This document shows, piece by piece, positions 4,336 through 20,798 of a stretch of 64,000 bases of DNA. This DNA comes from Maricaulis sp. Its GTDB lineage: Bacteria; Pseudomonadota; Alphaproteobacteria; Caulobacterales; Maricaulaceae. The translations under genes were made by a program, and so were the position numbers. The DNA is taken from NCBI RefSeq assembly GCF_017642925.1, contig NZ_JAEPOL010000004.1, forward strand, positions 1 through 64,000. The letters run 5' to 3'. Below the pieces are notes generated by a model, which was not told where the DNA came from, ran no database searches, and saw nothing but the letters and a program-made list of their open reading frames with translations. How positions within the stretch are numbered: position 1 is the stretch's first letter; every line of letters begins with the position of its first letter.

Positions 4336-5577
4336 ATGGCGGAAGACAGCTCGAATTCAGCCCTTCCGGCCGGGAAACCTCTTATGAGCCTGAAGTCGGC
4401 CGCCTACCGGGCGGCCCTAAAGACCTACACGCATATCGGCACACGCTTCACACCGCGCCGCCAGCCCTACATGCCCGGCATGCCCGTCCGGGTCGAGGGG
4501 TTTCATGGCGAAATTCTCGGCATCGGCGAAACCGCCCGGCAGTTCACCGGCGCATTGATGCAAGCCGGACACGATGCGCGGTCTTGGACTATCGACCCGC
4601 GGCTTCGCCCCGCTGGACCGGCCGCGGCCGACCGCACTGCAGCGGCCCTGCGGGTGAGCCATCTCAACCCGGATCAATTACTGGAATTTTCCATGCGCAT
4701 CGCCAGTCCCGGCGAGCGGCGCATGCCCCATGCCGGCTACTGGGTCTGGGAATTGGGATGCGCCCCGCAGCACTGGCGCCGGGCCGCCCGTCTTGTCGAT
4801 GCCGTGTGGACGCCGTCCCGCTTCTCCGCCGATGCCATAACGCGCATCCTGCCCGGCGACCGTGTCGCCGAAGTCCTGCCGCCACCGATCTTCGCTGCCG
4901 GACCAGTTGAAGCCCCGCCGGGGCTTCCTGGACGGGCAGAGGCCGTCCGGGTGCTGGCGCTGTGCGATCTGCGCTCCTCGGCGGCCCGCAAGAACCCGCT
5001 CGGCGCCCTGGCCACGTTCGAGGCTGCGTCGGCCTCGGCAGCCCGCCCGGCGCATCTTGTCCTGAAAGTGACCGGCTCGGCGCAATGCCCAAGCGAGATG
5101 GCTCGGCTTGCGGCGCGGGTCGGCGACCGGCCGGACGTCACCCTGCTGGTGAAGGACTTCACCGACGCGCAGATGCTGGGATTGATCGAGGCCTGCCCGA
5201 TCGCGCTGAGCCTGCATCGATCAGAAGGTTTCGGCCTGCTGGCCGCCCATGCGGCCTATCGCGGCAAGGCGGTAATCGCGACGAACTGGTCGGCCCCGAC
5301 CGAATTCCTGACCGCCGAAGGCGCCGGCCTGGTCAATTACCGCCTGGTCCCGGTCGAGGACGCACAGGGCATTTATCCCGATGGGCAAAGCTGGGCGGAG
5401 CCGGACATCGACCATGCCGCCGACTGGCTCGTCAGGCTGATCGATACGCCCGAGCTGCAACAGTCCATGGGAGAGACCGCGCGACAACACGCCGATGCAT
5501 GCCTCGGCCCGGCAGCCTGGCAGACCCGCCTGGCTAGCCTTCTCGACGGGCTGGACCCGTCGGTTCCGACTCGATGA
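4336..5577 (+). CDS. Family 4 (GT-B) glycosyltransferase
   Basis: 413 residues from the ATG at 4336, with GGAAGGG 13 bases upstream; an in-frame ATG at 4384 is the alternative. The C-terminal half carries the GT4 EX7E-like element SEGFGLLAAHAAYRGKAV followed by TNWSAPTEFL, and an earlier RVLALCDLRSSAARKNP segment fits the start of the second Rossmann domain. It should transfer a sugar from a nucleotide donor at the cytoplasmic face. It is divergent from the GT2 gene and convergent with gspI, overlapping the gspI 3' end by 44 bp. Confidence 0.85.
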   Translation: MAEDSSNSALPAGKPLMSLKSAAYRAALKTYTHIGTRFTPRRQPYMPGMPVRVEGFHGEILGIGETARQFTGALMQAGHDARSWTIDPRLRPAGPAAADRTAAALRVSHLNPDQLLEFSMRIASPGERRMPHAGYWVWELGCAPQHWRRAARLVDAVWTPSRFSADAITRILPGDRVAEVLPPPIFAAGPVEAPPGLPGRAEAVRVLALCDLRSSAARKNPLGALATFEAASASAARPAHLVLKVTGSAQCPSEMARLAARVGDRPDVTLLVKDFTDAQMLGLIEACPIALSLHRSEGFGLLAAHAAYRGKAVIATNWSAPTEFLTAEGAGLVNYRLVPVEDAQGIYPDGQSWAEPDIDHAADWLVRLIDTPELQQSMGETARQHADACLGPAAWQTRLASLLDGLDPSVPTR

Positions 5578-5995
5578 ACCCCAGTGGATCGCGAACCTGC
5601 TCCCAGCCAATCTTGCGCACCGTGAAACTGTCGCTGCGACCATTGCGCTCCATCCGGACCTCGACGTCGTAGAGGCCGACCGAGTGGATCGACTCCCCCA
5701 GATAACCGCGCGCGATCGGGACGGTCGCGACGGGACGCGCCTGCCAGCGCACAAGCCAGCCGCCGATCATGATCTCGCCGTCCGGCTGGAGCTGCGGATT
5801 GACGGTCTCCAGCCAGGCGAGCGCATTTTCTTTCGCTTCAAGCGCCGCGGCAGACTGCTCGAGGCGGAAGGCAGCGTCTGCCAGCGCTCGCTGCAGCTGG
5901 TAGAGCGGGATCATCGCCACGGCGATCAGTGCAATCGCCGCCAGAACCTCGACGACGGAAAAGCCGGCGCGCTTTTTGAGAACCCGGTGTTTCAC
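5534..5995 (-). CDS. gspI: T2SS minor pseudopilin GspI
   Basis: 153 residues from a GTG at 5995 that has GGGGAGG five bases upstream and shares a GTGA overlap with the gspO stop. The N-terminus is a class III signal, KKRAG|FSVVEVLAA, with Glu at +5 and a hydrophobic helix, the prepilin form processed by GspO. The rest has the size and KENALAWLETVN pattern of GspI, part of the pseudopilus tip (GspI-J-K). It is the last gene of the locus, not in the usual H-I-J order. Confidence 0.85.
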   Translation of the reverse strand: MKHRVLKKRAGFSVVEVLAAIALIAVAMIPLYQLQRALADAAFRLEQSAAALEAKENALAWLETVNPQLQPDGEIMIGGWLVRWQARPVATVPIARGYLGESIHSVGLYDVEVRMERNGRSDSFTVRKIGWEQVRDPLGFIESEPTGPARREG

Positions 5996-6609
5996 ACCAA
6001 CCTCCCCGCCACAACAGCCGCGGAGAACCCGGCGACAAGGCCAGGCCCGAACGCATAGCGCGCCGCTCCGGCCTGCCCGCGCAGCAGTGCAAGCAATACC
6101 GTAACGGCAACAGCGACAAGCAGCGCCGGACCGACCCAGCCCAGCCCGCACCACAATCCACCGGCCGCGGCGAGGCCGTAATCGCCGGTTCCCAGACCCT
6201 GTTTCCGGCTCCGAAGCCAGACCGCAAGACTGCCGCACAAGAGGACCGCCAGCGCAACGCCGGCACCGCCCAGCGCGATGGCCCATGTGGCGTAAGGATG
6301 CAGAACGGGCGCTGCCAGGAGCCCCGAGATAAGGAGCCCGGCCGATTGCAGGTCCGCAATGACACCCGACCGCCAGTCAAGCCATGCAGCGGCCAGGGCC
6401 AGCGGAACGGCAATAGCGATGGCAACCGCAAGCAGGGCATGCGTGCCGGCCACCAGGGCGGCTCCGCCAGCGACCGGGGCGGAGATGAAAAGCGCGATCC
6501 GTACGGGCCATCCGGCCGGGGAGGAGCCGAAGCCGGCGGTGTATCCGCCCAGCCCGCCCGCGAGGAGTACGGTCCCTGTTCCGGCAAGGATGAGCAGGGT
6601 GTCGGTCAC
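5992..6609 (-). CDS. gspO: Prepilin peptidase, A24 family (short GspO)
   Basis: 205 residues from the GTG at 6609, just after the gspD stop at 6617. The two catalytic aspartates of A24 proteases are visible: LDWRSG near residue 82 and the GxGD motif GTGDYGL near residue 147. There are six to seven hydrophobic helices. The protein cleaves the leaders of the GspG, H, I, J and K pseudopilins encoded here. It lacks the N-terminal cytoplasmic domain, with its zinc cysteines, that carries N-methylation in full-length PilD/GspO; short A24 enzymes exist in other bacteria. The gspI start overlaps its stop. Confidence 0.85.
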   Translation of the reverse strand: MTDTLLILAGTGTVLLAGGLGGYTAGFGSSPAGWPVRIALFISAPVAGGAALVAGTHALLAVAIAIAVPLALAAAWLDWRSGVIADLQSAGLLISGLLAAPVLHPYATWAIALGGAGVALAVLLCGSLAVWLRSRKQGLGTGDYGLAAAGGLWCGLGWVGPALLVAVAVTVLLALLRGQAGAARYAFGPGLVAGFSAAVVAGRLV

Positions 6610-6616
6610 ACCGGAT

Positions 6617-8815
6617 CTAGTTCCCGTCTTCGCCGTTGTCGGCACCGTGCCAGGCGCGGATCTGCATCGGCTCGGACGGTTCCCAAAGCGTCGATGCGGC
6701 CCGGGTCTGGTTCTGGAAACCCGTATTGATCGCACCGACGAGCGTATCGACGATACGCTGGCGATCGCTGCGGGTGTTGAGGATGTAGGGCGTTACGAGA
6801 ACAACCAGCATGGTGCGGCGGCTCGACAGGGTTTCATTGCCGAAGGCATTGCCGATGAAGGGCACGTCCTTCAACAGGGGGACGCCCCCATTGCCGCGCG
6901 TGAAACGGTTCTCGATCAATCCGCCCAGAACAGCGGTCTGGCCGTCCTGCAGCGACAGTTCGGAGGTCATGCTGCGGTTGGAAATGATCGGGCTGGCGAT
7001 CGCCTCGTTCTCATTGGTCTCGGCCGAGGAAACTTCCTGGCTGATTGCCAGGTCGATGCGGTTGCCGCTGTAAACCAGCGGCGCCACGGTCAGGATCACA
7101 CCAGTCGAACGGTACTGTACCGTCTGGAGAATGTCGGACGAGCCCTGGTTCTGGGTATCCGCAGCGCGCTGCGAGGTGATGATCGGCACGTCGGTGCCCA
7201 CCTGCACGAAGCCTTCGGAGCCGGATCGTGTGATAATGCGGGGCGTCGAGAGCACATTGATCTGGTTGCTGGACGAACCGGCCGTACCCGTCAGCGTCAC
7301 CTGGCCGGTATCAACGACAGCAGAGATTCCGCTTTCAGTGTTGATGTTGGCGGAGAATTGCGCGGCCGTATCGGTGTCGAAAACGGCGTCCAGACCAAAA
7401 TTGACATCATCGGTGAGGGTCACTTCGGCGATGGTCACCTCGATCATCACTTCCGGCAGCGGGGTATCGAGCTGGCGCAGCAGCGACTCGATCTCCGAAT
7501 ACTCCGCGCGGGTTCCAAAGAAGATGATCCGGTTGCCCATCGGGTCCACGGTCAGGCCGTCGCCGCCGCCGATCACGCGGGGCGAATTGTCCCGCTGGCT
7601 GCGCTGATTGCGCTGGCCGTCCTCGCTGGTCGGTGCGGTCTGCGACGTCTCGGACGCGCTGCCGGCCGTGCCCGGCGCGGCATGACCCATCGCAACATTG
7701 ACGACCTGGGCGAGAATCTCCGCGCTTGTATTCTGCACATTGTAGACATGCGCGATCCGCGCCTCGGCCTCATAGGCGTCCGCATCCAGACGGCGCGCCG
7801 TGGCGACGACATGGTTGGCCAGCGAGCGCTCCCGCGCAAATACCATCAGCTGATTGGTGTAGTTCAGCGGCAGAAGCGTGATCGCCCGCGGCTGACTGCT
7901 GCCCAGCGCAACGTAGTAGCCCTCGACCGTCAGGATGGATTGCAGGTCCCGCGCGAGATCCTGGACGGCCCAGTTGCGCGGCGTGAAGGTGATGACCTGT
8001 GTCCCTGCAAAGCGCAGCTCGTCCATCTGCTCGACAATCGCCAGCGCGGCATCGACCGTGTCGGACAGTCCGCTGAGCACCATCGAATTGCTGCCGCGGT
8101 TGGACCGGATGGTCAGCTGGTCGTCTTCCGGGAAAGCCTGTTCGAGGATGACTTCCATGTCCGCCGCATCGATTGCCGTCAGCTCCACGAACTGCACGAT
8201 AGGACGCAGGTCGCTGGGCACGCTGGGCCGGGCACGCGAGCGGACGAATTGCGGGATCTGGGCGCGCAGCTCGTCCATGCCGACGATCCGGAACAGCCCG
8301 TTCTCATAGGTGACGGCGAGCCCGTAATCCTTCAGCGCTTCTTCGACGAGGGCGAGGAAAGTGCTCGGCGGCATGTCGTGCACGCTGCGGAGAGAAATGA
8401 TGTCGGAGCGCTGCGCCACGTCCGGACCGATGGAGAAGGGCTGGTTCAGCACTTCGCCGAAGACCGTGTTGACGAAGCTCGGCAGCGGTTGGGGTGGCAG
8501 GGTGACATTGATCGCCGGACCGTCGAGCGTTTCGGTTACCGGGTCATAGCGTCCTGTTCCCGAGGTGCCGCGACCGAGAGAGGGCACGGTACGGGAATCG
8601 GTTTGCTCCACGCCCGGTTCGGCACCCGGCTCCTGCAGATCGACCGGGCCGTCGCCCGGAGCGCCGCGGCCTTCGCGTGCATCGCCGCCGGACAGTTCAA
8701 TCCCCAGCGGACCCGATCCGCTGAGCCAGTCGAACCGCTCTTCCCCGCCCGTGCTGGCACAGGCCGAAAGAACGCTCGCCAGCACCACCGGCATGCTCAA
8801 AAACCGCAACTTCAT
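6617..8815 (-). CDS. gspD: T2SS outer-membrane secretin GspD
   Basis: 732 residues from the ATG at 8815, preceded by AGGGAAGG. The N-terminus is a lipoprotein signal (VLASVLSAC) with the lipid-modified Cys about residue 17, so the secretin may be self-piloting. N0/N1-N3 repeats follow (VITFTPRNWAVQDLARDLQ and others), then the secretin core ending in SELSLQDGQTAVLGGLIEN and VPLLKDVPFIGNAF. It forms the outer-membrane channel through which folded proteins leave. The stop of the GspC-like gene lies one base upstream, so the two are tightly coupled. Confidence 0.97.
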   Translation of the reverse strand: MKLRFLSMPVVLASVLSACASTGGEERFDWLSGSGPLGIELSGGDAREGRGAPGDGPVDLQEPGAEPGVEQTDSRTVPSLGRGTSGTGRYDPVTETLDGPAINVTLPPQPLPSFVNTVFGEVLNQPFSIGPDVAQRSDIISLRSVHDMPPSTFLALVEEALKDYGLAVTYENGLFRIVGMDELRAQIPQFVRSRARPSVPSDLRPIVQFVELTAIDAADMEVILEQAFPEDDQLTIRSNRGSNSMVLSGLSDTVDAALAIVEQMDELRFAGTQVITFTPRNWAVQDLARDLQSILTVEGYYVALGSSQPRAITLLPLNYTNQLMVFARERSLANHVVATARRLDADAYEAEARIAHVYNVQNTSAEILAQVVNVAMGHAAPGTAGSASETSQTAPTSEDGQRNQRSQRDNSPRVIGGGDGLTVDPMGNRIIFFGTRAEYSEIESLLRQLDTPLPEVMIEVTIAEVTLTDDVNFGLDAVFDTDTAAQFSANINTESGISAVVDTGQVTLTGTAGSSSNQINVLSTPRIITRSGSEGFVQVGTDVPIITSQRAADTQNQGSSDILQTVQYRSTGVILTVAPLVYSGNRIDLAISQEVSSAETNENEAIASPIISNRSMTSELSLQDGQTAVLGGLIENRFTRGNGGVPLLKDVPFIGNAFGNETLSSRRTMLVVLVTPYILNTRSDRQRIVDTLVGAINTGFQNQTRAASTLWEPSEPMQIRAWHGADNGEDGN

Positions 8816-8816
8816 A

Positions 8817-9302
8817 CTAGCCTTCCCTGGAGGGGTACGCATCGAGCGTGCGTGTCCGTCCCTCTCGCTCGAACGTAACAGATGTTGCCGAAATCGCAGC
8901 CACTTGCCAATTGTCGGCCAGGACATCGCCGATCCGCAGCATCCGGCAGCTTCCGTCTTCGCGTGCAATGCAGATCGTCCAGCCATCACCGCGGTTGAGA
9001 AAAGCCGCAAGTGCCGGATCGGCAAACGCCGCTTCAACCGCGTCGATGCCCAGTGCTTCGGTGTCTGTATCAACAGCCACGGCGCTATCGCCCAGTGGCT
9101 CGGCATCCGGATAGAGACCGCTGGCGACGATTCGCCCCACAAGCGCGTCCACCTCATCTGCCGTCCACGGGTCGACCGGCTGGGCAATGCGCGCATCGCG
9201 GTCGACCGACGCGGTTTGACGGCGCTCGCTGCCCGTCAGTCCGAGCGCCAGTGCGCCGGCTGCCAGAAACAGCGCCAGGAGCAGGCGGAAGCCCGAGGTC
9301 AT
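8817..9302 (-). CDS. GspC-like inner-membrane HR-domain protein
   Basis: 161 residues. It starts with a single membrane helix (FRLLLALFLAAGALALGL), then a linker and a C-terminal segment, CRMLRIGDVLADNWQVAAIS, that fits the homology-region fold of GspC/PilP (gly-x-x-ile...trp-x-val), the part that contacts the secretin N0 domain. There is no PDZ or coiled-coil end, so it is much shorter than GspC of Enterobacteria. The position directly before gspD supports the role. The gspM stop overlaps its ATG by four bases (ATGA). It could instead be labelled GspN-like; the family is inferred from pattern and context. Confidence 0.6.
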   Translation of the reverse strand: MTSGFRLLLALFLAAGALALGLTGSERRQTASVDRDARIAQPVDPWTADEVDALVGRIVASGLYPDAEPLGDSAVAVDTDTEALGIDAVEAAFADPALAAFLNRGDGWTICIAREDGSCRMLRIGDVLADNWQVAAISATSVTFEREGRTRTLDAYPSREG

Positions 9303-9883
9303 GACGCCTCCCCGGTGGCCGTCTCGACAATGGCCGGCGCCCGCAGCGTGGCCTGGACGATCGTGTTGCCACGCACCCACTGGAAGTCCGATGGCACGAC
9401 GGCGCCGTCCAGGGTTTGCAGGCGCTGGAAGAAATTCAGGAACTGGCCGTCCCGGTCCCGGGCCGTCAGTGTGATCTCGAACTCCAGCCGCCCGTCCGCC
9501 GCGAGCGCGTCCGGCCGCGCCTGCACCTCGACCCGCACCCGGTCCAGACCGGCCTGGGTGGCGGCGCTCTCGATAGCGCTCTGCAGCCGCGCCGAGACGA
9601 TGCCCGTCGTCGCGCCGCGCCAGAAACTGGCCTCGACCCGTTCCTTCTGGGCGGCCAGTTCCCCCGCCGCATCGAGCCATTGCTGGCCATTCGCCAGGCT
9701 GCGCTGGATCGCAAGCGAGCGATCGAGTTCGCGCACATCCTGCTGCCGTGCCGCGACCGAGGTCGCCAGATTGCTCAGCCCGACCGCTGCCAGCAGGACA
9801 ACAAGTATCCCGACACCGGCCAGCGCCCGTGGTGTAGCCTGCTCGCGAAGGGTATCGATCAGCTTGCGAAGACTGTCCGGCAT
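9299..9883 (-). CDS. gspM: T2SS inner-membrane protein GspM
   Basis: 194 residues: a short cytoplasmic N-terminus, one membrane helix (ALAGVGILVVLLAAVGL, about residues 20-37), a predicted coiled coil, then a ferredoxin-like C-terminal domain with the LNFFQRLQTL segment typical of GspM. It partners GspL in the inner-membrane platform that links the GspE ATPase to the pseudopilus. Its first base is the last base of the gspL stop (TGATG), so translation is coupled. Confidence 0.85.
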   Translation of the reverse strand: MPDSLRKLIDTLREQATPRALAGVGILVVLLAAVGLSNLATSVAARQQDVRELDRSLAIQRSLANGQQWLDAAGELAAQKERVEASFWRGATTGIVSARLQSAIESAATQAGLDRVRVEVQARPDALAADGRLEFEITLTARDRDGQFLNFFQRLQTLDGAVVPSDFQWVRGNTIVQATLRAPAIVETATGEAS

Positions 9884-10926
9884 CAGCTGCGCCCCCCGTT
9901 TTCGAAGGTCGCGAAAATCCGCCAGCGATCGGCCCGGCCGCCGGGCTCGAGGCGCACATCGCGCAGCACGGGCGTATCTTCAAGCGCTTCGACCAGACTG
10001 GCCAGCGGCAGGTCGGAATTGCCGGCGAGTTCGATTTCCATCCTGCCATCACGGACCGCGAAGGTTTCCAGTGTGGCATCAAACCCGGCGGCAGCTTCTG
10101 CGAACACGGCCAGCGCCGCAGCAGGATGCGGTGCTTCAAGCAGTTCCGCATAGGTCTGGAGCGTCCCTGCCAGCGCCATGGACTCGGCGCGGGCCGCAAC
10201 CACTTCCGACGAGCTTTCGGCAAGCGTCGCCAGCTCGCGCTCAAGCGCGTCCGCCGTCATCGTGGCGCGCAGCCACTGTCCGCCCAGATACAACGCCGGA
10301 ACCAGGAGCAACAGAATGGCCAGCGCGAGATAATCGCGTGCCCGAATTCGGGACACGGCGTCGCCGGCCCGGTTCACCAGTGCGGCGATATCGACATCGC
10401 CCTTGACGTCCGTGCGCTCGGATGTGTCGCCAAAGGCGGGAACGGCCCGCACGAACCGGCGCCACTGCGCCTCGTCCGGCTCATGATCCCACCAGCGGCT
10501 GGCGGCGAGCTGGCCGCCCTGCCAGACCTGCCCCTCGAAACCGCCGTCACGACGCCGCAGGACTTCACCCTCGGCGACAGGGTCCAGCAGCGATTCCGGA
10601 ACGATATCGACTTCGGCTCCAGCGAGCGGTTCCAGGATGTTTTTCGGCCAGCTCCAGATTCCCACTCGTCCACCGGACCAGACCAGCCGGATATCGGGAT
10701 CCTTGAACGGGGACCGTGCCCGCGCCGCCAGTTTCGCCGCCTGTATGGCACGCATGTCGCGCTGGCCGGCCGGCGCGGGAATGGACTCGAAGTGACAGTG
10801 GCGCCGGCTCAGGACCACACGCTCGCCGACGACAAGACGGCGCAGGGGCGTACCGCGCCGGTCGATCGAACCGGCGGCAGTCACCCGGCTATCGACCGGC
10901 TTCAGGAAGCGGCTGGATTGGCTCAT
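9883..10926 (-). CDS. gspL: T2SS inner-membrane protein GspL
   Basis: 347 residues. The N-terminal ~190 residues correspond to the cytoplasmic actin-like domain that binds GspE (degenerate in sequence); a single membrane helix YLALAILLLLVPALYLGG lies near residues 203-220, then a coiled coil and a ferredoxin-like C-terminus ending just before gspM. The order K-L-M is the standard one. The ATG at 10926 overlaps the gspK end by 38 bp; a GTG at 10884, just past the gspK stop, is an alternative start. Confidence 0.8.
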   Translation of the reverse strand: MSQSSRFLKPVDSRVTAAGSIDRRGTPLRRLVVGERVVLSRRHCHFESIPAPAGQRDMRAIQAAKLAARARSPFKDPDIRLVWSGGRVGIWSWPKNILEPLAGAEVDIVPESLLDPVAEGEVLRRRDGGFEGQVWQGGQLAASRWWDHEPDEAQWRRFVRAVPAFGDTSERTDVKGDVDIAALVNRAGDAVSRIRARDYLALAILLLLVPALYLGGQWLRATMTADALERELATLAESSSEVVAARAESMALAGTLQTYAELLEAPHPAAALAVFAEAAAGFDATLETFAVRDGRMEIELAGNSDLPLASLVEALEDTPVLRDVRLEPGGRADRWRIFATFENGGRS

Positions 10927-11932
10927 CCGCGCTCATCCCCAACACGTCACTCACATACTCGCCTCCAATACGGTATCTGTAGGCAAGCGAAAAGGGCGCC
11001 CGAACACTTTCCGGTGTCAGCGTATAGACCGAAATCCAGGCGTGCCGCGCCGACCGGTCATGGACAATCACGGCGAACTGGCCTGTTGCCGAGGTCGGGG
11101 CCGACAGAATGTCCGCCGCCGGATCGAGTTGCGGCCAGTCAATTCCCGCGAAATCGACCAGATATCCGTCCTGATAGTCTTCATAGGCCTCCTGCGCATC
11201 GTCCACCGAGTCGGTGAGCAGCCGGAGCATGGGCATGCCGGCGAGCCGCGCATTGATCTGGCGCGTGCCGCGATCCATGGTCAAAAGCAGGAGCCGGTCG
11301 CGGTCCGCGCAGATGTCCTCGCGCGCCCAGCCGGCGACCTGGCAGATTTCCAGCGGACTGACGATCGGCCGGTTCGGCGGCATACCGCTCTCGGAATAGG
11401 CTGCCTGTTCGGCGCCGCCCGGACGCCTCAGATCGTCCTCGTCCTGGTAGTCGGCCAGCGCTGCGGCCAGTCCGGCCTGACGCAGGTCCGGAACGCCCAG
11501 CGCCGTCATCCGCGCATCCCGTCCATCGACGCCCAGCAGTCCGGCGTTGAAGAAGGCCTGCTGGTCGAGATAGCGCACGACGAATTCGTCGGCGTAGAGA
11601 CGCGGTTCGCCGTTGGCACGCAGCAGGGTCACCTGGCTCGGGTCCTCGATTGTCCGGCCGACAAAGCGGTCGGTCGCACTGAGACCGCCGATTTCGATAC
11701 CGTTTACCGACATCGGACTGGTCAGAGCGTGATAGAGAAAGGTCTGGTCGGCTGACAGCGCCCCGATCTCACGCTCGAAGTCCGCTTCCTGCCGCGCATA
11801 GCTTTCGATGCCCCGCTGGACCTGGGATGCCGCAACACCGACGATCAGGGTTATGACCACGATCGCAGCCAGCGCCATGGGGAAGGCGTAACCCTCGCGC
11901 AAACCGGCGTGTTCCGCGGACCGCTCCCTCAT
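10889..11932 (-). CDS. gspK: T2SS minor pseudopilin GspK
   Basis: 347 residues. A hydrophobic helix (MALAAIVVITLIVGVAAS) follows a short basic/acidic leader, EGYAFP; the Glu at +5 found in other pseudopilins is absent, which is normal for GspK. The large periplasmic domain has the ALADYQDEDDLRRPGGAE segment, matching the DWIDxDxxxRxxGAE-type motif of GspK, the tip protein of the pseudopilus. The start overlaps the gspJ stop (ATGA). Confidence 0.85.
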   Translation of the reverse strand: MRERSAEHAGLREGYAFPMALAAIVVITLIVGVAASQVQRGIESYARQEADFEREIGALSADQTFLYHALTSPMSVNGIEIGGLSATDRFVGRTIEDPSQVTLLRANGEPRLYADEFVVRYLDQQAFFNAGLLGVDGRDARMTALGVPDLRQAGLAAALADYQDEDDLRRPGGAEQAAYSESGMPPNRPIVSPLEICQVAGWAREDICADRDRLLLLTMDRGTRQINARLAGMPMLRLLTDSVDDAQEAYEDYQDGYLVDFAGIDWPQLDPAADILSAPTSATGQFAVIVHDRSARHAWISVYTLTPESVRAPFSLAYRYRIGGEYVSDVLGMSADEPIQPLPEAGR

Positions 11933-13658: not shown

Positions 13659-14051
13659 TCAGGCGATCCGCTGATCGAGCGAGCAAGTGCGCCGGGCCAG
13701 CGAGAACACGTATTCGCGGCCGCGCGGTGTGGTCACCTGCAGCCGTCCGCCATTGCAGACGCCCGCGGGAGAGAATGTCACCGCCTCGTCGACGAGAATA
13801 TACCAGCCGACCGGGAGTTCGGCGGCCAGCGCCGCCTCGGCCTCGCCGGCATCGATGATGCGTGCATCGATCTGGCTGGCGGCCCGCAGATCGGTGAGAC
13901 CGATATCGATACTGCGCAGCACGCTTTGCACGCGCTGCTGCTCGATCATGCGGATAAGAGCCGGGGTGGAAACGGTCAGCGCAACCGCGACGATCGCCAC
14001 CACCACCACGACTTCGAGCATGGTATAGCCTGCGCGGAGATATCCGGGCAT
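13659..14051 (-). CDS. gspH: T2SS minor pseudopilin GspH
   Basis: 130 residues with a six-residue leader and prepilin site RAG|YTMLEVVVVVAIVAVAL (Glu +5). The C-terminal part is short with two cysteines (VCNGG and RRTCS), possibly a disulfide. It follows gspG by 12 bp. Length and position fit GspH, which joins the pseudopilus shaft to the tip. A 133-bp gap separates it from the sulfotransferase that follows. Confidence 0.8.
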   Translation of the reverse strand: MPGYLRAGYTMLEVVVVVAIVAVALTVSTPALIRMIEQQRVQSVLRSIDIGLTDLRAASQIDARIIDAGEAEAALAAELPVGWYILVDEAVTFSPAGVCNGGRLQVTTPRGREYVFSLARRTCSLDQRIA

Positions 14052-14063: not shown

Positions 14064-14519
14064 CTAGATGCCGATATCGGCGTCGAGACCGCTGCCGCCT
14101 TCGGCATTGTCGGCGCCCAGGCTGTATACTTGGCCACGGTCGGACTGCCCCTCGGCGGCACGATAGCGATAGGGGTTGCCCCAGGGGTCGGTCGGAAGAT
14201 CCTCGTCCAGATACGGGCCCTGCCACATCGCCGAGACCGAGGGGTTCGGCGTGCTCAGAAGGGCGAGGCCTTCTTCATTGGTCGGATACCGGCCGATATC
14301 GAGCCGCATGGAATCCAGCGCCGTCTCCAGCATGTCGATCTGGGTCTCCGCGGAGGTCACGCGAGCACGGTCGAGCTGGCCGAACAGGCGCGGCGCCACC
14401 AGGGTGGCGAGCACTGCAATGATCGCCACGGCGACCAGGATTTCCATCAGGGAGTAGCCAGGCCGGGCAACCGAAAACCGCTCGCCGGCCGTTTTGAAGA
14501 CAGCTTTAAGTCTGGACAT
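14064..14519 (-). CDS. gspG: T2SS major pseudopilin GspG
   Basis: 151 residues from the ATG at 14519; an upstream in-frame TTG at 14540 would add seven. The leader is about 21 residues, then RPG|YSLMEILVAVAIIAVLA with Glu +5. The C-terminal domain carries the GspG signatures RYPTNEEGLALL and DPWGNPYRY, which form the calcium-site loop, ending near SLGADNAEGGSGLDADIGI. GspG polymerises into the pseudopilus piston. Its start faces the methyltransferase at 14588 across a short divergent gap, so a promoter for G-H-J-K-L-M-D-O-I may lie there. Confidence 0.95.
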   Translation of the reverse strand: MSRLKAVFKTAGERFSVARPGYSLMEILVAVAIIAVLATLVAPRLFGQLDRARVTSAETQIDMLETALDSMRLDIGRYPTNEEGLALLSTPNPSVSAMWQGPYLDEDLPTDPWGNPYRYRAAEGQSDRGQVYSLGADNAEGGSGLDADIGI

Positions 14520-14587: not shown

Positions 14588-15301
14588 ATGCCACGTCACC
14601 TGTCGCCGGAAGAAGCCGAGGAGCTCAAGCCGGGCTCGGACAATTACCGCGCCTATGTCGGCCCGCCCCGCCGCTTCGGCCTGCTCACCCTGTCGCAGAT
14701 GTCGCTGCTCGCAGCTCTGGGCCTGGAAGAAACCGATTATGTGCTCGACTTCGGCTGCGGCTCGCTGCGCCTGGGCCGATCGCTCATCCCCTTCCTGCGC
14801 GAAGGCCGCTATTTCGGCGTCGACCCCAATCTCTGGCTGATCGATGACGGGTTCAAATACGAGACGGGCGAGGATCTCAAGGCGCTCAAATCGCCGCAAT
14901 TCTCCGGTTCCGACGCCTTCGACTGCACCGTGTTCGACCGCGAATTCGACTTCATCATGGCCCAGTCGATCATCACCCATGCCGGCGCCGACAATACCCG
15001 CAAGCTGATCGAGAGTGCTGGCCGTGCCATGAAGCAGGACGGCATACTCATGCTGTCCTATCTCAAGGGCGAAGCGGGTACGCCACTGCCGGAGGAGCCC
15101 TGGACCTATCCGTTCAACGTGCCCTATCCGGAAAGCTGGCTGCAACAGACGTGCGCGGATGCCGGCCTGGTCTGGCGCGAGCTGGACTGGCACCATGCCG
15201 GTGCGACCTGGGCTGCTGTCGTGCGTGACGAACGCCGGCTGCCGCTGAACGATCACAAGCTGGGCTATCGCGGTGTCGCCGCACCGCGCTGGCGGGCCTG
15301 A
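14588..15301 (+). CDS. Class I SAM-dependent methyltransferase
   Basis: 237 residues. Motif I is VLDFGCGSLRLGRSL near residue 52, followed by the acidic YFGVDPN that binds the SAM ribose, and AQSIITHA around motif IV. It is the only gene in the opposite direction within the gsp locus, sitting between gspF and gspG. It resembles the other methyltransferase at 16535 in the GCGSLR motif, so both could act on glycan or lipid acceptors. The true substrate cannot be told from sequence. Confidence 0.85.
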   Translation: MPRHLSPEEAEELKPGSDNYRAYVGPPRRFGLLTLSQMSLLAALGLEETDYVLDFGCGSLRLGRSLIPFLREGRYFGVDPNLWLIDDGFKYETGEDLKALKSPQFSGSDAFDCTVFDREFDFIMAQSIITHAGADNTRKLIESAGRAMKQDGILMLSYLKGEAGTPLPEEPWTYPFNVPYPESWLQQTCADAGLVWRELDWHHAGATWAAVVRDERRLPLNDHKLGYRGVAAPRWRA

Positions 15302-15313: not shown

Positions 15314-16513
15314 CTAGAGCGCGATGTCGTAGAGGCTGGTCATTGCCATCACCAGGCTGACAACGATCGCGCCGACCACCGCGGCAATGAACAGGACGGC
15401 CAGCGGCTCGGCCAGCGAGGTCAGCCGCTTGGCCCGGTCCTTGGTCTCGGTCTCGTACATCTCGGCGACAAAGAGCAGCATTTCGTCCAGCGAGGCGGCC
15501 GCCCGGCCGGTCTTCACCAGATTGATCGTCATCGAATCGAAATCGGTATAGGCGCGCAGCGCATCCTCGATCGGCTCGCCCGAGCGGATCGCCCGGCGCA
15601 CTTCCGCGAGGGCCTGCTGCCAGCGCACCGACGTCAGCGAAGCCTCCGCCAGCGCAAGCGCTTCCAGCAAGGGCGCACCGCCTGACAGCGCCGTCCCGGA
15701 AATCCGCGCCCAGCGCGCAATCTCGCTGGCCTTCAGGAAAGAGCCGATCACCGGCATGCGGAACAGGAATTCGCGCAGCCCGGTACGGAAGCCGGCATTC
15801 TGCGAGAGCATGTAACCGCCGCCGATCAGCCCGGCCAGGCCGATCCCGGCCTCGACCATATGGGCGCGCAGCCAGACGCCGGTCTCGATCACCACGCGCG
15901 AGAAGCCGGGCAGTTGCGACCGGTCATCACCCAGCAGCGTGGCGAAGCGCGGCACCACGAAGAGGAAGATGAACAGCACGGCGACAACGCCCATCACCGC
16001 GAGGAAGGACGGGTAGGCCAGCGCATTGCGCACCTCGGCGGCCGCGCGCAGATCCTGTTCCATCTGGCCGGCAATATCGTTCAGCGCGCGCGGCAGATCG
16101 CCGGTCGCCTCGCCCAGCTCGACCAGGCGCGGCACATAGTCGGGAAAGCCGCGCAGTGACTGCTTCATCGCCACTGAAAGCCGCGTCCCCGAGCGCAGGG
16201 CGCGGCGGATCTCGTCCGCCGTCTCGGCCAGTTCGCGGCAGGGCTCGTCGCCGCCGATCGTCTCGAAGGCCGACAGGAGCGGACTGCCCGCGCGCAGCAG
16301 CATGGCGAGCTGGCGCATGAAACGGAAGCGGTCCTGCGGCCTTGCCTTGTTGCGGTCGTAACGCCGGTCGGCCAGCCGTGCCTCGCGGATCTGGAAGGCG
16401 GAGATCGACTGGGCTTCGAGCTGGCGCAGCGCATCAACCTCATCGGCCGCCGAGATGCGGCCCTCGACTTCACCGCTGCCGGCTTTCAGTCCCTTGTAGA
16501 TGAAGGTTGCCAT
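15314..16513 (-). CDS. gspF: T2SS inner-membrane platform protein GspF
   Basis: 399 residues, a normal length. Two GspF domains (about residues 70-190 and 270-395), each a helical bundle, and three long membrane helices, one near 165-190, one near 215-230 and one near the C-terminus. The N-terminus FIYKGLKAGSGEVEGRISA is the usual GspF/PilC start. It anchors GspE at the membrane. It lies 21 bp after a methyltransferase gene rather than beside gspE. Confidence 0.95.
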   Translation of the reverse strand: MATFIYKGLKAGSGEVEGRISAADEVDALRQLEAQSISAFQIREARLADRRYDRNKARPQDRFRFMRQLAMLLRAGSPLLSAFETIGGDEPCRELAETADEIRRALRSGTRLSVAMKQSLRGFPDYVPRLVELGEATGDLPRALNDIAGQMEQDLRAAAEVRNALAYPSFLAVMGVVAVLFIFLFVVPRFATLLGDDRSQLPGFSRVVIETGVWLRAHMVEAGIGLAGLIGGGYMLSQNAGFRTGLREFLFRMPVIGSFLKASEIARWARISGTALSGGAPLLEALALAEASLTSVRWQQALAEVRRAIRSGEPIEDALRAYTDFDSMTINLVKTGRAAASLDEMLLFVAEMYETETKDRAKRLTSLAEPLAVLFIAAVVGAIVVSLVMAMTSLYDIAL

Positions 16514-16534
16514 GGACCGCCGCTCCTTGAGGAC

Positions 16535-17227
16535 CTAGCGCCGCGTGAACAGGGCCATGCGCTGGTCGCGCGGATGGCCCCATTCGCCGATGATGGTGAG
16601 GTCCCAGCCCTCCGGTGTCGCTGCAGACAGCGCATCGTGGCGGATATCGAACGGGTCACGGTCGTGCCAGGTCGCGATACCGCCCGGCTCGTGAATCACC
16701 GGATCGCCGTCCGGGCAGTCGTCGGGCCGGTGGAAATAGGTGATGTAGACCCGCCCGCCCGGCACGAAGTGCGGCGCGATGGCGGAAAGACAATCGGTCA
16801 GCTGGCCCAGCGGCAAATGGGTAAAGACCGATTGGGCCAGGCCGAAATCGAAATGCACGCCGAAGGGCGAGACGTCCCAGTCCGCCGTCGCGTGCAGATG
16901 ATTGGGCGGCAGTTTCGAGCCAAGGCCCGCGGGCAGGATCTCGCGTTCATAGCCGGCATCGAGAAGATCGCGGCTGATATCGATGCCGTAATAGCGATCC
17001 GCATCGAGATAACGGGTCAGCGGCACGCCGGCGCGCAGCGATCCGCAGCCGATATCGACCAGCCGGTGATGCGGCTTCAGCCCCTGCCCCACCAGGAAGT
17101 CATGCTGCAGCGAACCCAGCTCGTCCCACATGCCGCCGATCACATCGCGGTGCTCGCCGACCTCGACGCGCCGGCGCACGAGATCGAGATTGTGGTATTT
17201 GGTGATGAAGTCGGTCTCGCGGGTCAT
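16535..17227 (-). CDS. Class I SAM-dependent methyltransferase in gsp operon
   Basis: 230 residues. SAM-binding motif LVDIGCGSLRAGVPL near residue 56, then YYGIDIS, then FGLAQSVFTHLP. Similar enzymes in surface-glycan loci methylate sugars, but no substrate is provable here. Its ATG overlaps the stop of the glycosyltransferase gene by four bases and gspF follows 21 bp later, so it is part of the gspE-to-gspF transcript. Confidence 0.85.
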   Translation of the reverse strand: MTRETDFITKYHNLDLVRRRVEVGEHRDVIGGMWDELGSLQHDFLVGQGLKPHHRLVDIGCGSLRAGVPLTRYLDADRYYGIDISRDLLDAGYEREILPAGLGSKLPPNHLHATADWDVSPFGVHFDFGLAQSVFTHLPLGQLTDCLSAIAPHFVPGGRVYITYFHRPDDCPDGDPVIHEPGGIATWHDRDPFDIRHDALSAATPEGWDLTIIGEWGHPRDQRMALFTRR

Positions 17228-18153
17228 TCCGGCCGCTCTCCCCCGGCGAAAGTCTGCACGTCGGCCACGGCGGACGGGCCCAGATCCCCGAACAGCAATG
17301 GTGCACGCTGGGGCACAGCATAGTCCATTTGCCGGATCTGTCGGTACTGGTCCGCATAGATGTCCCAGGTGGTGCGCCCGTCCGGCGCGGCGGGTTTCCC
17401 GACACCCTTCGCAGTCGTCACGCCGCCATGATGCTGGTGGAAGGTCCCCTCGCCGACCAGCAGGACATAGAGCGCGTCGGGATGCTCGACGGCGCGGCGG
17501 AAGAAGTCGTGGTTCACGATACCGCCGCCGGGAATGTCGAATCGCTCGTCATAGCCCCCGATCGCCTTGTAGAAGGCTTTCGAGACGATGATCGCATTGC
17601 TCTCGGCGATCGGAGCCAGCCAGCCCTTGCGCGCCGACAGGCCCAGACAACCGATCTCGAACAGGCGATGCCCGTCCTGCGGCCAGCCGATCGAGTCGAG
17701 CAGCGCGTCTTCGGTGGCCGCGTCATAGCCCTGCTTCACCGCCTCCTGCTGCACGATATGGCCAAGGTGATAGCCCATCGTCGCGATCACCGGGCAGTCC
17801 GACAGGCGCGCCGCCAGCATCGCCTTGCGCAGGATGCCGGGCGTCGCGATACGGGCACCGTCGATCACCGGGCAGACCCATTTGCCGCGCGCCTTGGCCA
17901 CCCCGAGATTGAGGGCGTAGGCTGGCGAGCCCGGCGCATTCTCGATGTTGAAATAGCGCACATTGGCCGGCCATCCGGCGCGCACCGCTTCGGGAACAGG
18001 CCGGCTCGACCCGTTCTCCATCACCAGGATCTCGATATCGCCCGGCGCCATCTCCTGCTGATAGGGCGCGAGGAAGGACTGCACCGTGCGCGGCACTTCG
18101 CGCGGCATGTCGTAGGCGACAATGATGACGGAGATGCGCGGCCTAGACAGCAT
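17224..18153 (-). CDS. Family 2 glycosyltransferase in gsp operon
   Basis: 309 residues. The N-terminus ISVIIVAYDMPREVPRTVQS is a GT-A nucleotide-sugar fold; CPVIDGARI sits where the DxD motif is expected, and a GGYDERFDIPGGGIVNHDF segment is the acceptor-side loop. No membrane helices, so it is cytoplasmic. The start overlaps the preceding sulfotransferase by 11 bp and the end overlaps the methyltransferase by 4 bp. The trio sulfotransferase-glycosyltransferase-methyltransferase looks like a glycan-building cassette set into the secretion operon. Confidence 0.85.
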   Translation of the reverse strand: MLSRPRISVIIVAYDMPREVPRTVQSFLAPYQQEMAPGDIEILVMENGSSRPVPEAVRAGWPANVRYFNIENAPGSPAYALNLGVAKARGKWVCPVIDGARIATPGILRKAMLAARLSDCPVIATMGYHLGHIVQQEAVKQGYDAATEDALLDSIGWPQDGHRLFEIGCLGLSARKGWLAPIAESNAIIVSKAFYKAIGGYDERFDIPGGGIVNHDFFRRAVEHPDALYVLLVGEGTFHQHHGGVTTAKGVGKPAAPDGRTTWDIYADQYRQIRQMDYAVPQRAPLLFGDLGPSAVADVQTFAGGERPE

Positions 18154-18871
18154 GGCGTTCGAGCTCCTGCCAGATGTCCTCCACCCCGGCCGGCACCGGG
18201 CGCGATGCCGCCTGGTGCTTCAGTGCCCGGTCGAAGAACCGACCGGCGGCCTCGGGACGGGGCAATCCCAGATCGCGGGCAATCGCCGTGACCTTCTCCA
18301 CATAGAGGCCGCCATCGATGTCATAGCGCACGATCGGGAAATCATGCCGCCGCCGCAGGTCGCAGAGCGCGCGGTTATAGGCCGCCCAGAGATCCAGCGC
18401 GGCATCGGGATCCATCGGCTGGCCCCAGGCCTTGGCCCGGGTGCACAGCGAGGCGATCACGGCTTCGGGATGCCGGTAGGTGCCGACAAAGCGGGGGCTG
18501 AAGCGTGAGAGCCAGCCCTCGATCAGCATGAGGGAGCGCGGATCCTTGCCGCCCCAGGGTGTGTGCGCAGCCGCCGTGGCCGTTGCATCCGTCAGGGCCG
18601 CCAGATCGGCCTCGGTCCAGGCGACGGGCGAGGCGGGCGGCCGGTCCCAGGCGGCGTCGTGGCGTTCCAGCAGGGCATCGTGCAGCTGCATGACGGCGAG
18701 ATTCTCGCGATTGCCGCGCTGATTGTGCGGCGCCTGCGTATTCACCTCGCCCAGATGGAGGCCGGCCGCTTCCAGACAGCCCGCGAGGCAGGAGGTGCCG
18801 GAGCGGTGCATGCCGACGACCAGCACGGGGCGATCGTCGCGGATGCCGTGCTTGCCGGCGGTCTCAGGCAT
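18143..18871 (-). CDS. Sulfotransferase coupled to gspE
   Basis: 242 residues from the ATG at 18871; a longer frame would start inside gspE. PVLVVGMHRSGTSCLAGCLEAA carries the PAPS 5'-phosphosulfate loop, and YRHPEAVIASLCTRA matches the 3'-phosphate site. The NQRGNRENLAVMQLHD stretch resembles the sulfotransferase at the left edge of the window, suggesting the same subfamily. The start overlaps the gspE stop by eight bases and its end overlaps the glycosyltransferase by eleven, so translation is probably coupled both ways. Confidence 0.85.
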   Translation of the reverse strand: MPETAGKHGIRDDRPVLVVGMHRSGTSCLAGCLEAAGLHLGEVNTQAPHNQRGNRENLAVMQLHDALLERHDAAWDRPPASPVAWTEADLAALTDATATAAAHTPWGGKDPRSLMLIEGWLSRFSPRFVGTYRHPEAVIASLCTRAKAWGQPMDPDAALDLWAAYNRALCDLRRRHDFPIVRYDIDGGLYVEKVTAIARDLGLPRPEAAGRFFDRALKHQAASRPVPAGVEDIWQELERHAV

Positions 18872-20798
18872 GGGCAGCCGAGGCCTGGCCGAGCACACGC
18901 AGGATCTCCTCGGTCGAGGTATAGCCCTGCGCCGCCTTGACCAGCCCGTCCTCATACATGGTCAGGAAACCGTCCTTGCGCGCCGCGGCGATGAGGTCGC
19001 TCTCGGGCCTGGCTTCATTGATCGCCTGTCGTACGGCATTGGTGAAGCGGGCGACCTCGAACACGGCGACCCGGCCGGAATAGCCGGTGCCGGAACAGTG
19101 CGCGCAACCGCGCGCTTCGCGCCAGTGCGGCTGGTTGACGCTGTCGGGCAGGTCGGCCCCGGCACGGCGCACCTCGTCCAGCCGCGCTTCGCCCTGGGCG
19201 ATTGCGGCCGGGCCGGCCGGTACGCTGCAATGGCCGCACAGGCGGCGCACCAGGCGCTGGCCCATCAGGCCGCGCAGCGAGGCGGAAACCAGAAACGGTT
19301 CGACGCCCAGATCGACAAGGCGTTCCACCGCCGACAGGGCGGTATTGGTGTGCAGGGTGGAGAAGACCAGGTGGCCGGTCAGCGCGGCCTGCACGGCGAT
19401 ACCGGCGGTCTCGCCGTCGCGGATCTCGCCGATCATGATCACGTCCGGGTCCTGGCGCAGGATGGCGCGCAGGCCGCGGGCGAAGGTGTAGCCGATATCG
19501 GCGCGCGCCTGGACCTGGGTGATCCCGTCCATGTCGTATTCGACCGGGTCCTCGATCGTGATGATCTTGCGCTGGCCGTCATTGACGCCTTCCAGCCCCC
19601 GGTAGAGCGTGGTCGACTTGCCCGAGCCGGTCGGGCCCGTCACCAGGATGACGCCATTGCGTTCTTCCAGCAGCGCCTGGAAGGCTTCCATCGACCGGCC
19701 TTCCAGCCCCAGCCCCTCAAGGCTGGGCAGGCTCTGCTGCTTGCGCAGGAGACGCAGCACGATGCTCTCGCCCCAGGCGCCCGGCAGGCTGGACACCCGC
19801 AGATCGATATCCTGGCCGGCAAAGCGCACCGACTGGCGGCCGTCCTGCGGCAGCCGCCGCTCGGCGATATCCATGCCGGACAGGAGCTTCACCCGCGAGG
19901 CGACCGCGTCGAACCGGCTGCGCGGCAATGTGTTCACCGTGCGCAGCACACCGTCGATCCGGAAGCGGATCTGCACATGGCTCTCGAAAGGCTCGATATG
20001 AATGTCCGAGGCACCCTGGCGCAGCGCGTCCTCGAACATGCCGTTGACCAGGTCGATGACCGGCGCTTCCTCGGCCATCTCGCGCAGACGGTGAAGATCG
20101 TCGGCATCGTCGGCGCTGGCGACGCGTCCGGACGAGCGCAGCGAGGCGAGCGCACCATCGAGCAGGCGGGTCGGCCCTAGCCACATAACGGCCGGTCCGC
20201 GCCAGGCGCGTTCCAGCGCCTCGAGCACCGGCGGATGCAAGGGTGCGCGGGCGAAGACGTTCAGCTGCGGCGGCTCGGCTTCAGGCGAAAATTGCTCGGC
20301 GGCATAGGGATCGGCGCTTTCCGACAGCATATTGTCAGCACCCGCTTCCCCCTTCTCCCCGGGGAGACCGTGTCCCGAAGGGACGGATGAGGGGGTATGC
20401 CGGCTCTCCCGGCCCGTTGAACGCAGAGAGGTGTCTCCCCCCTCTCCCCGGCCCTCTCCCAAGAGAGAGGGAGCGCTTTCAGCTGCTTGCTCATCCTTGG
20501 CTTCGAACCACAGCACGGTGTCGTGTTGCAGGAGCCAATCCGGCGCGAGGCCGAGACGGTCGGCTGCGGCACGGTAGGCGGACGGTTCTTCCGGCAGCAC
20601 CGCCATGTCCAGGACAGGAAAATCGAGCTGGCGCGACAGGGCCGCGAGAAGCACGTCTTCGGAGAGTGCACCCACGCGCAGCAGGGCCTGGCCGAACAGG
20701 CCACCGACCTTTGCCTGGAAGCGCGCCGCGGCCTCGACATCCTCTGCCGTGACATGGCTGTCCTCAAGCAGGATCTCGCCGATACGCCGATTGTCCAT
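18864..20798 (-). CDS. gspE: T2SS ATPase GspE with repeat-derived insertion
   Basis: 644 residues, longer than the usual 500-580. Domain order: N1E (1-100), an insertion (about 109-152) of palindromic-repeat origin, N2E and linker (from about 240), then the ATPase. Walker A is GPTGSGKST at 388-396, the Asp box is near ITIEDPVEY, Walker B IMIGEIRD is at 454-461 and the His box is HTNTA. Two CxxC pairs at 521-524 and 565-568 form the zinc module. It powers pseudopilus assembly from the cytoplasmic side. The catalytic parts are complete, so it should be active despite the insertion. Confidence 0.96.
   Translation of the reverse strand: MDNRRIGEILLEDSHVTAEDVEAAARFQAKVGGLFGQALLRVGALSEDVLLAALSRQLDFPVLDMAVLPEEPSAYRAAADRLGLAPDWLLQHDTVLWFEAKDEQAAESAPSLLGEGRGEGGDTSLRSTGRESRHTPSSVPSGHGLPGEKGEAGADNMLSESADPYAAEQFSPEAEPPQLNVFARAPLHPPVLEALERAWRGPAVMWLGPTRLLDGALASLRSSGRVASADDADDLHRLREMAEEAPVIDLVNGMFEDALRQGASDIHIEPFESHVQIRFRIDGVLRTVNTLPRSRFDAVASRVKLLSGMDIAERRLPQDGRQSVRFAGQDIDLRVSSLPGAWGESIVLRLLRKQQSLPSLEGLGLEGRSMEAFQALLEERNGVILVTGPTGSGKSTTLYRGLEGVNDGQRKIITIEDPVEYDMDGITQVQARADIGYTFARGLRAILRQDPDVIMIGEIRDGETAGIAVQAALTGHLVFSTLHTNTALSAVERLVDLGVEPFLVSASLRGLMGQRLVRRLCGHCSVPAGPAAIAQGEARLDEVRRAGADLPDSVNQPHWREARGCAHCSGTGYSGRVAVFEVARFTNAVRQAINEARPESDLIAAARKDGFLTMYEDGLVKAAQGYTSTEEILRVLGQASAAHA
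20343..20474 (-). repeat. Palindromic repeat element inserted in frame in gspE
   Basis: About 130 bp of C/T-rich strand made of two blocks. The first, about 20346-20398, has imperfect inverted ends (CCCCCTTCTCC against CCCCCTCATCC in reverse) and a small hairpin, GTCCCgaaGGGAC. The second, about 20404-20474, has CCCTCTCCCCGGCCCTCTCCC followed by AAGAGAGAGGG. Such sequences are normally intergenic repeats in many proteobacteria. Here the block is a multiple of three with no stop and encodes about residues 109-152 of GspE. Confidence 0.75.

Follow-up and report, generated by a model that had tools for sequence, protein, structure and literature searches.

A second type II secretion locus in Maricaulis sp., interleaved with sulfotransferase, glycosyltransferase and methyltransferase genes, and its probable exported cargo

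In Aeromonas, a type II secretion system (T2SS) specific for the surface layer (S-layer), encoded by the sps genes, lies together with vapA between wzm and wzt in the O-antigen cluster, named wbsalmo or wbO11. The cluster also holds rml genes, a family 2 glycosyltransferase (GT2) gene and one gene with a sulfotransferase domain (ORF19 in A. salmonicida), whose role is left open in the sections available of the two papers (PMC4483657, PMC4413209). In marine Gammaproteobacteria the S-layer gene slr4 adjoins a T2SS operon, and the Caulobacter S-layer protein RsaA is exported by type I secretion, according to the portion available of another study (PMC7821379). The rsaADEF genes are reported, in the available part of a further paper, only in Caulobacteraceae and as absent from other Caulobacterales families (PMC12700997). 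Here we describe a T2SS encoded on a stretch of 64,000 nucleotides of the Maricaulis sp. genome (the window, G000:C4:1-64000; G numbers denote genomes, G000 being the window's own, and L numbers loci). We call it T2SS-b, since its GspF protein belongs to a clade apart from the other T2SS of the same genomes. Its gsp genes are interleaved with genes for sulfotransferases (ST), a GT2 and a methyltransferase (MT), here called modifiers, and next to gspE lies orf475, which encodes an acidic exported protein.

The locus resembles Aeromonas sps in that the T2SS adjoins the gene of an exported protein of about 470 residues, among rml, GT2 and candidate ATP-binding cassette (ABC) export genes; this is a likeness of gene context. 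As in Aeromonas, the gene of a putative exported surface protein is co-inherited with its own T2SS. The Aeromonas T2SS is one inserted block in the sections available, whereas in the window ST, GT2 and MT genes are interleaved with gsp genes and overlap them. Also unlike sps, several sulfotransferases recur at T2SS-b loci, genes for making 3'-phosphoadenosine 5'-phosphosulfate (PAPS) join some of them, and the cargo family and its C-terminal domain belong to no named family. Slr4 is alike in context, with a Sec-signal protein gene beside a conserved T2SS operon in marine hosts, and differs in that its main text contains no mention of a sulfotransferase (0 occurrences) (PMC7821379). RsaA with RsaDEF shares the bacterial order and the arrangement of an envelope-coating protein with its own secretion genes, as far as the part available of that report goes (PMC12700997). 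The sequence-only reading of the window had stated that no system of this kind was described, which is too strong in view of the Aeromonas S-layer T2SS inside an O-antigen cluster (PMC4483657, sections available). Among the matches listed in a search of chiefly open literature, none described by title or abstract a T2SS with interleaved sulfotransferase genes, and the Aeromonas paper came nearest. Within the literature searched, T2SS-b appears novel in its host group, its interleaved sulfation and methylation genes, its cargo family and the shared C-terminal domain. A sulfotransferase is likewise encoded with a secretion system in RaxST-RaxX-RaxAB of Xanthomonas, which differs in that a small peptide, sulfated on tyrosine, leaves by type I secretion and that no GT2 or MT is known to belong to the system.

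On the minus strand of the window, the genes stand in the transcription order orf475, gspE, ST1, GT2, MT, gspF, gspG, gspH, ST2, gspJ, gspK, gspL and gspM. Behind gspM come, in this order, the genes of a 161-aa protein, the secretin (gspD), the prepilin peptidase and a GspI-like pseudopilin, and after these a GT2 gene and two ABC genes, one for a candidate permease and one for an ATPase (Table 1). gspE overlaps ST1 by 8 bp, ST1 overlaps GT2 by 11 bp and GT2 overlaps MT by 4 bp; gspF starts 21 bp after MT, and the end of gspJ-proximal ST2 reaches 26 bp into gspJ. These overlaps agree to the base with those given in the sequence-only reading. ST2 occupies the usual place of gspI between gspH and gspJ. 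The shared messages that the overlaps had been taken to require may exist for gspE-ST1-GT2-MT-gspF, but do not extend simply across a second methyltransferase gene, MT2. Since MT2, which separates gspF from gspG, is encoded on the plus strand and converges with gspF, one simple co-directional operon from gspE to gspJ is unlikely. MT2 is kept in this position in five loci (the window and L038-L041, 56-66% identity). A promoter and terminator scan of positions 5000-23000 returned fewer sites than in shuffled sequence.

T2SS-b is distinct from the other T2SS of its hosts. A gspF search of 119 genomes of the family finds it in 26, the window included, at E values of 3.5e-85 or better, followed by a clear gap: the row at 2e-76 belongs to a second gspF fragment of a genome already among the 26, and matches resume at 7e-41. 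At a threshold of 1e-55, 39 of 398 genomes of the order matched. In a tree of 71 GspF proteins, the 50 from T2SS-b loci form one clade (SH-aLRT 100), and 21 control GspF from genomes of the same family, including the second system of the window's own genome (contig C12), fall outside it. Named relatives of the window's GspF come from Marinicauda, Oceanicaulis, Maricaulis, Robiginitomaculum, Hellea, Parvularculaceae, Hyphomonas polymorpha, Henriciella and Ponticaulis, with Iodidimonas and Rhodothalassium as more distant relatives. Genomes with and without T2SS-b occur side by side within seven of the nine genera that have it (g1, g5, g7, g8, g11, g14, g15). The window's congeners (L043, L045, L065) fall in a fully supported group that excludes the window's own GspF, and the latter is placed nearer to L038 and L039 of another genus (support 89). 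This grouping away from congeners suggests that the window's T2SS was transferred horizontally. G292:C1:7660 and G292:C1:2956580 are the same T2SS-b locus at both ends of a contig, probably an assembly overlap, and are counted as two loci and one genome.

Modifier genes are a recurrent feature of the clade. An ST, GT2 or MT gene lies within 8 kb of gspF at 25 of the 26 family loci, at 14 of 21 further loci of the order (13 of 20 genomes, L077 and L078 being one genome twice), at all 8 extra loci that we chose out of 39 (L120, L131, L132, L137, L147, L148, L150, L154) and at none of the 21 control T2SS loci. The controls were hand-picked: 20 T2SS-b genomes contributed a single other gspF locus each, and the window's genome one more; G113, G020, G033 and G089 (one listed each, unfetched) and all second other-gspF loci were left out. 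Hidden Markov models (HMMs) for ST, GT2, MT and orf475 were built here and iterated on the fetched loci, with the controls in the same search set. Using the curated PF13469 model only, a match within 8 kb of gspF is found in 17 of the 26 genomes, with 3.4% expected per genome. The single family locus lacking a modifier match (L060, G005) has an ST1 homolog beside gspF by tblastn (43%) that was lost in open reading frame (ORF) picking. The order of gsp genes is heavily reshuffled among T2SS-b loci, and the modifiers remain beside gspE and gspF. gspE-ST-GT2-gspF recurs in another family, with gaps of -4/-4/-4 (L075) and +26/-4/-1 (L077/L078). Other arrangements are ST-GT2-gspF (L052, L054, L061, L062), two sulfotransferases, an aminotransferase and a GT2 before gspF (L049, L050, L053, L056, L058), gspE-MT-gspF (L038-L040) and ST genes right after gspF (L042-L046, L065). 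Among co-directional gsp/modifier junctions, 19 of 48 measure 30 bp or less, overlaps counted.

Recurrence in relatives, together with the empty controls, rules out a chance insertion into a single genome and bears out the earlier suggestion that chance does not explain the arrangement: the interleaving is a conserved property of the T2SS-b clade, judged from gene content and order. The sequence-only reading had proposed synteny across relatives as a test, and the outcome favors it; its further conjecture is that cargo or cell surface might be modified in step with secretion. Another alternative is hitch-hiking, in which T2SS-b lands in polysaccharide clusters that act as insertion hot spots, and ST, GT2 and MT are leftovers of these clusters, functionally unrelated to secretion. 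Genes in compact genomes often have near-zero gaps, differing ST lineages occupy differing loci, ST1 and GT2 have homologs elsewhere, and sps of Aeromonas is interpreted, in the sections available, as having been inserted into the O-antigen cluster (PMC4483657, PMC4413209). Yet the modifiers lie inside the gsp run, between gspE and gspF, in two families, they hold that place despite the wholesale reshuffling of other gsp genes, no control locus has them, and PAPS genes join some T2SS-b loci. We therefore regard hitch-hiking as rather unlikely, though it deserves more weight than the other alternatives considered below.

L052 carries ST-GT2-gspF followed by the PAPS-making genes cysD and cysNC. 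Of the 26 genomes, 8 have an adenosine 5'-phosphosulfate (APS) kinase gene no more than about 30 kb from gspF, against 0.58 expected; the count uses the 27 of 36 rows that match in full or nearly so, leaves aside 9 partial ones and includes G092, at 30.1 kb. Genes of the rml or short-chain dehydrogenase/reductase (SDR) type occur in the fetched stretch at 10 of 26 family and 6 of 21 order loci vs 1 of 21 controls, and this lone control (L113) adjoins a T2SS-b. A polysaccharide context of T2SS-b is thus supported by the gene neighborhoods.

Directly upstream of gspE, orf475 encodes a protein with a Sec-type leader that we consider, with good confidence, to be cargo of T2SS-b. The mature protein is free of lysine, has a predicted isoelectric point of 4.1 and is rich in Gly, Ala, Thr (11.5%) and Asp (10.4%), with 8.4% Ser and 1.1% Tyr; it matches no Pfam or NCBIfam family. 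Its effective number of codons (ENC) is 33.7 at a third-position G+C fraction (GC3) of 0.77, vs 41.0 to 42.5 for the tetratricopeptide repeat (TPR)-sulfotransferase gene, gspG, ST2 and gspK of like GC3, which hints at high expression. A homolog is present no further than 8 kb from gspF at 12 of 26 loci of the family, 10 of 21 of the order and 5 of the 8 extra ones, against 0 of 21 controls, and homologs adjoin gspE even where gspE has moved off gspF (L177, L180). Iodidimonas muriae (L131) and Rhodothalassium salexigens (L137) carry one too, the latter with an MT in between. The orf475 profile matches at full length in 22 of the 26 T2SS-b genomes, partially in 2 and not at all in 2. Among the 93 family genomes without T2SS-b there is no full-length match and there are three partial ones, in G041 (76 aa, E 7.6e-6), G050 (55 aa, 1.2e-6) and G064 (190 aa, 3.5e-26, at a contig edge in a genome 88% complete); none was found in 36 other genomes of the class. 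In G053, G063, G045 and G109, orf475 and gspF are on separate contigs, and the stretch fetched around orf475 showed no gsp gene, so the co-occurrence does not reflect linkage alone. The cargo link is well supported by these patterns, and orf475 is likely the main, S-layer-like cargo. The homolog in G096 (L038:15902-17323) is split by one in-frame stop and is either a decaying copy or a sequencing error. At L049, L050, L053, L056 and L057 a protein of about 700 aa, TonB-receptor-like in the L053 copy, adjoins gspE, and the orf475 homolog of this clade is located elsewhere or was not found.

The C-terminal domain of orf475 is modelled by AlphaFold2 (AF2) as a beta-sandwich (pLDDT 85.2, pTM 0.77) and recurs in exported subtilases and immunoglobulin (Ig)-like proteins. 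It was found in 36 of 46 T2SS-b genomes and in 0 of 34 others, most of these negatives being genomes already named by earlier searches. Exported subtilases at L168:9200-12814 (the window's own genome, contig C17), L170 and L171 carry tandem copies of the domain. Such subtilases are candidates for extra T2SS-b substrates. Neither ST1 nor the orf475 family nor the C-terminal domain found a convincing sequence match in the PDB; a Titin match at E 0.0025 was discarded, since no stretch of it passes alone. No known S-layer fold is among the fold matches listed for orf475, which excludes nothing.

We tentatively favor, at somewhat below even confidence, a reading of the locus as a second, dedicated T2SS that works like the S-layer-type T2SS of Aeromonas. 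The orf475 protein would be made in quantity, cross the inner membrane by Sec, fold and be exported by T2SS-b, which would also export a few other proteins with the same C-terminal domain (subtilases and Ig-like proteins). ST1, GT2 and MT, with ST2 and MT2, would add sulfate and methyl groups in the cytoplasm, using PAPS, and so finish or cap a surface polysaccharide. This polysaccharide, perhaps rhamnose-containing, might afterwards be exported by the ABC genes behind gspI. The C-terminal domain would then tether the exported proteins to the cell-surface glycan, as S-layers are tethered to O-antigen. With the tailoring enzymes inside the gsp operon, the anchor and the anchored protein would form one inherited, co-expressed package. 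We rate action of ST, GT2 and MT on a surface glycan as evenly balanced, and retention of the exported proteins on that glycan by the C-terminal domain, which is drawn from analogy, as conceivable but fairly doubtful.

Two other substrates come into question. The modifiers could act on the exported protein itself, giving a sulfated and methylated glycoprotein, or on a lipid-linked glycan that is transferred to the cargo. Their tight interleaving with gspE and gspF, the many Thr and Ser residues of orf475 and the precedent of RaxST, which acts on the secreted peptide RaxX, would fit. However, enzymes of these families, which depend on PAPS, S-adenosylmethionine (SAM) or nucleotide sugars, are cytoplasmic, and T2SS cargo passes Sec unfolded and folds in the periplasm; Tyr, moreover, is rare in orf475. 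In view of these compartments, the most likely target of the enzymes is a surface glycan, as a polysaccharide completed in the cytoplasm, and modification of the cargo appears unlikely. The modifiers might instead act on the pseudopilins and secretin and so tune the secretion machine. Proximity is what speaks for this; secretin and pseudopilins leave the cytoplasm before assembly and none of the 21 control T2SS loci carries modifiers, which makes it highly improbable.

Several observations weigh against a dedicated S-layer-type system with an in-locus glycan pathway. Seven order loci have no modifier within 8 kb (L068, L071, L072, L080, L081, L082, L085; L068 and L071 are contigs under 5 kb, and L072 had a weak ST match of 52 bits in the first pass), and which of ST, GT2 and MT is present differs between loci. 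ST1 and GT2 are not exclusive to T2SS-b, as twelve further fetched regions (L156-L167) hold homologs with no T2SS-b gspF nearby. More than one sulfotransferase lineage occurs at T2SS-b loci, and the GT2 and ST trees, made by a quick method and with long branches flagged, show no clean single origin: they need 4 and 5 label changes, values as low as these arising in 37 and 64 of 500 shuffles. Repeated recruitment or replacement of modifiers is suggested. orf475 is within 8 kb of gspF in just 27 of the 55 T2SS-b loci examined, has no sequence match to a solved structure, and gives middling, tied fold matches, mostly to Ig-like adhesins; rmlB, pgm and ugd have an ENC as low, at higher GC3. In 10 of the 46 T2SS-b genomes the search found no C-terminal domain, and the fold matches behind its possible role as a glycan binder, in the manner of a carbohydrate-binding module, are weak. 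The control L099 has a cysD-like match. ABC-transporter matches are no commoner at T2SS-b loci (5 of 26 in the family, 3 of 21 in the order) than at control loci (10 of 21), which lowers our confidence in the surface-glycan step and in the reading as a whole. ABC transporters were accordingly dropped as a hallmark of T2SS-b; an ABC export route rests on the gene order of the window, so that an ABC-exported O-antigen is weaker than the polysaccharide context in general, and export of a surface polysaccharide by the window's ABC genes is possible. These genes were also matched in 20-kb stretches of other T2SS (L063, L102, L104, L107-L110, L112, L113, L116). Finally, kin genomes are non-independent samples, and Poisson, binomial and Fisher statistics on them overstate certainty.

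Table 1. Features of the window (positions in the window, strand and basis of assignment)
Feature	Position	Strand	Basis
orf475, exported acidic beta-rich protein	20997..22424	-	Sec-type N-terminus, homologs beside gspE, T2SS-b co-occurrence
C-terminal domain of orf475, beta-sandwich, last ~130 residues	20997..21407	-	alignment A4, AF2 model
gspE, secretion ATPase	18864..20798	-	PF00437 (T2SSE) E 2.2e-131
ST1, sulfotransferase	18143..18871	-	PF13469 (Sulfotransfer_3) 2.3e-8, 35 bits, scanned from longer frame 18143-18955
GT2, glycosyltransferase	17224..18153	-	PF00535 5.3e-7; homologs adjoin T2SS-b gspE/gspF
MT, SAM methyltransferase	16535..17227	-	PF08242 (Methyltransf_12) 3.7e-7
gspF	15314..16513	-	PF00482 (T2SSF) 1.3e-51; T2SS-b clade
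MT2, second methyltransferase	14588..15301	+	PF13489 1.5e-7
gspG, major pseudopilin	14064..14519	-	TIGR01710 145 bits over cut-off, PF08334; scanned from longer frame to 14540
gspH-like minor pseudopilin	13659..14051	-	N_methyl motif slightly below cut-off, position
ST2, sulfotransferase	12581..13525	-	PF13469 9.5e-29, 101.6 bits, scanned from longer frame to 13594
gspJ-like minor pseudopilin	11929..12606	-	N_methyl motif below cut-off; position between ST2 and gspK
gspK	10889..11932	-	PF21687 4.8e-7
gspL-like	9883..10926	-	position, 36-40% homologs in L038-L041; no family match
gspM	9299..9883	-	NF040576 1.5e-8, below cut-off
161-aa protein, candidate GspC/N, between gspM and gspD	8817..9302	-	kept there in L038-L041; no GspC family match
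gspD, secretin	6617..8815	-	PF00263 2.7e-40, Secretin_N; scanned from longer frame to 9196
Prepilin peptidase	5992..6609	-	PF01478 3.5e-9, scanned from longer frame to 6735
gspI-like pseudopilin, displaced behind gspD	5534..5995	-	N_methyl 3.8e-5, from longer frame to 6286
Second GT2	2794..4335	-	PF00535
Candidate ABC permease	1846..2790	-	no Pfam match; named from sequence, place, 56% homolog in L039
ABC ATPase	1150..1833	-	PF00005 3.6e-17
TPR-sulfotransferase	22859..25087	+	upstream of orf475, divergent
rmlC	25111..25692	+	
rmlB-like	25689..26741	+	
rmlD	to 27616	+	

The T2SS core (GspE, GspF, GspG and the secretin GspD) is encoded in the window by family matches; of the minor pseudopilins, gspK (PF21687) and gspI (N_methyl) score over the cut-off, and the N_methyl matches of gspJ and gspH fall under the curated one. 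Both sulfotransferases pass the PF13469 cut-off of 27 bits. ST1 contains GMHRSGTS and RHPEAVIAS, and ST2 GAPRSGTS; GMHRSGTS and GAPRSGTS we take to be the PAPS-binding 5'-phosphosulfate-binding (5'-PSB) motif. The start of ST1 was set at 18871, not 18955, as the motif of its relatives, where found, lies 10-20 residues from the start. MT homologs 59-64% identical stand between gspE and gspF in L038-L040, and ST2 homologs (54-60%) near gspJ in L038 and L039. Residues 5-57 of gspE resemble an MshE-type domain that binds cyclic di-GMP (NF053729, 38.1 bits, cut-off 38). Secretion by T2SS-b may respond to cyclic di-GMP, which would fit a function in surface life. A sulfotransferase-like frame at the left edge of the window is matched by the HMM built here and not by Pfam, and the same genome has a further sulfotransferase at G000:C1:260733-261293, with an in-frame TAA in the searched frame. 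Downstream of gspF-ST in L042-L046 and L065 lies a conserved gene pair, c22 (about 317 aa) and c27 (about 485 aa); the L045 copies have no Pfam family, and a third sulfotransferase-like gene adjoins the pair in most loci. A plus-strand ORF of 1774 aa (253-5577) was rejected as a gene, being antisense to the GT2 and ABC genes and of poor codon score; it exemplifies the long spurious frames at about 66% GC. The minus-strand ORFs 14537-15256 and 13444-14226, which match no family, were likewise rejected.

Joint inheritance of T2SS-b, the modifier genes and the acidic exported protein suggests a package that builds and coats the cell surface. It would tie possible sulfated surface glycans to a secretion system, and T2SS-b becomes a candidate S-layer route for the Caulobacterales families reported to lack rsaADEF. 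T2SS-b bears on two questions, how a T2SS chooses its substrates and how exported proteins are retained on Gram-negative surfaces. The machine, its likely chief cargo, the C-terminal domain seen in the tested genomes solely alongside the machine, and the enzymes that may make the anchor can all be named, and some members of the group are marine bacteria in culture, so that substrate choice and anchoring are directly testable. In other systems, S-layer homology (SLH) domains with CsaB pyruvylation and the type IX C-terminal domains, a module ties exported proteins to a modified surface glycan; the parallel is one of analogy only. The broadest proposal is that marine Caulobacterales possess a self-contained, horizontally mobile surface-display system consisting of T2SS-b, a set of exported proteins with the C-terminal domain (a lysine-free layer protein, proteases and Ig-like proteins) and in-operon enzymes that mark with sulfate and methyl the surface glycan recognized by that domain. 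We consider this a speculative possibility with clearly less than an even prospect of holding in full. If it held, Gram-negative bacteria would have, on the basis of a type II system, a counterpart of SLH/CsaB or of type IX C-terminal-domain sorting.

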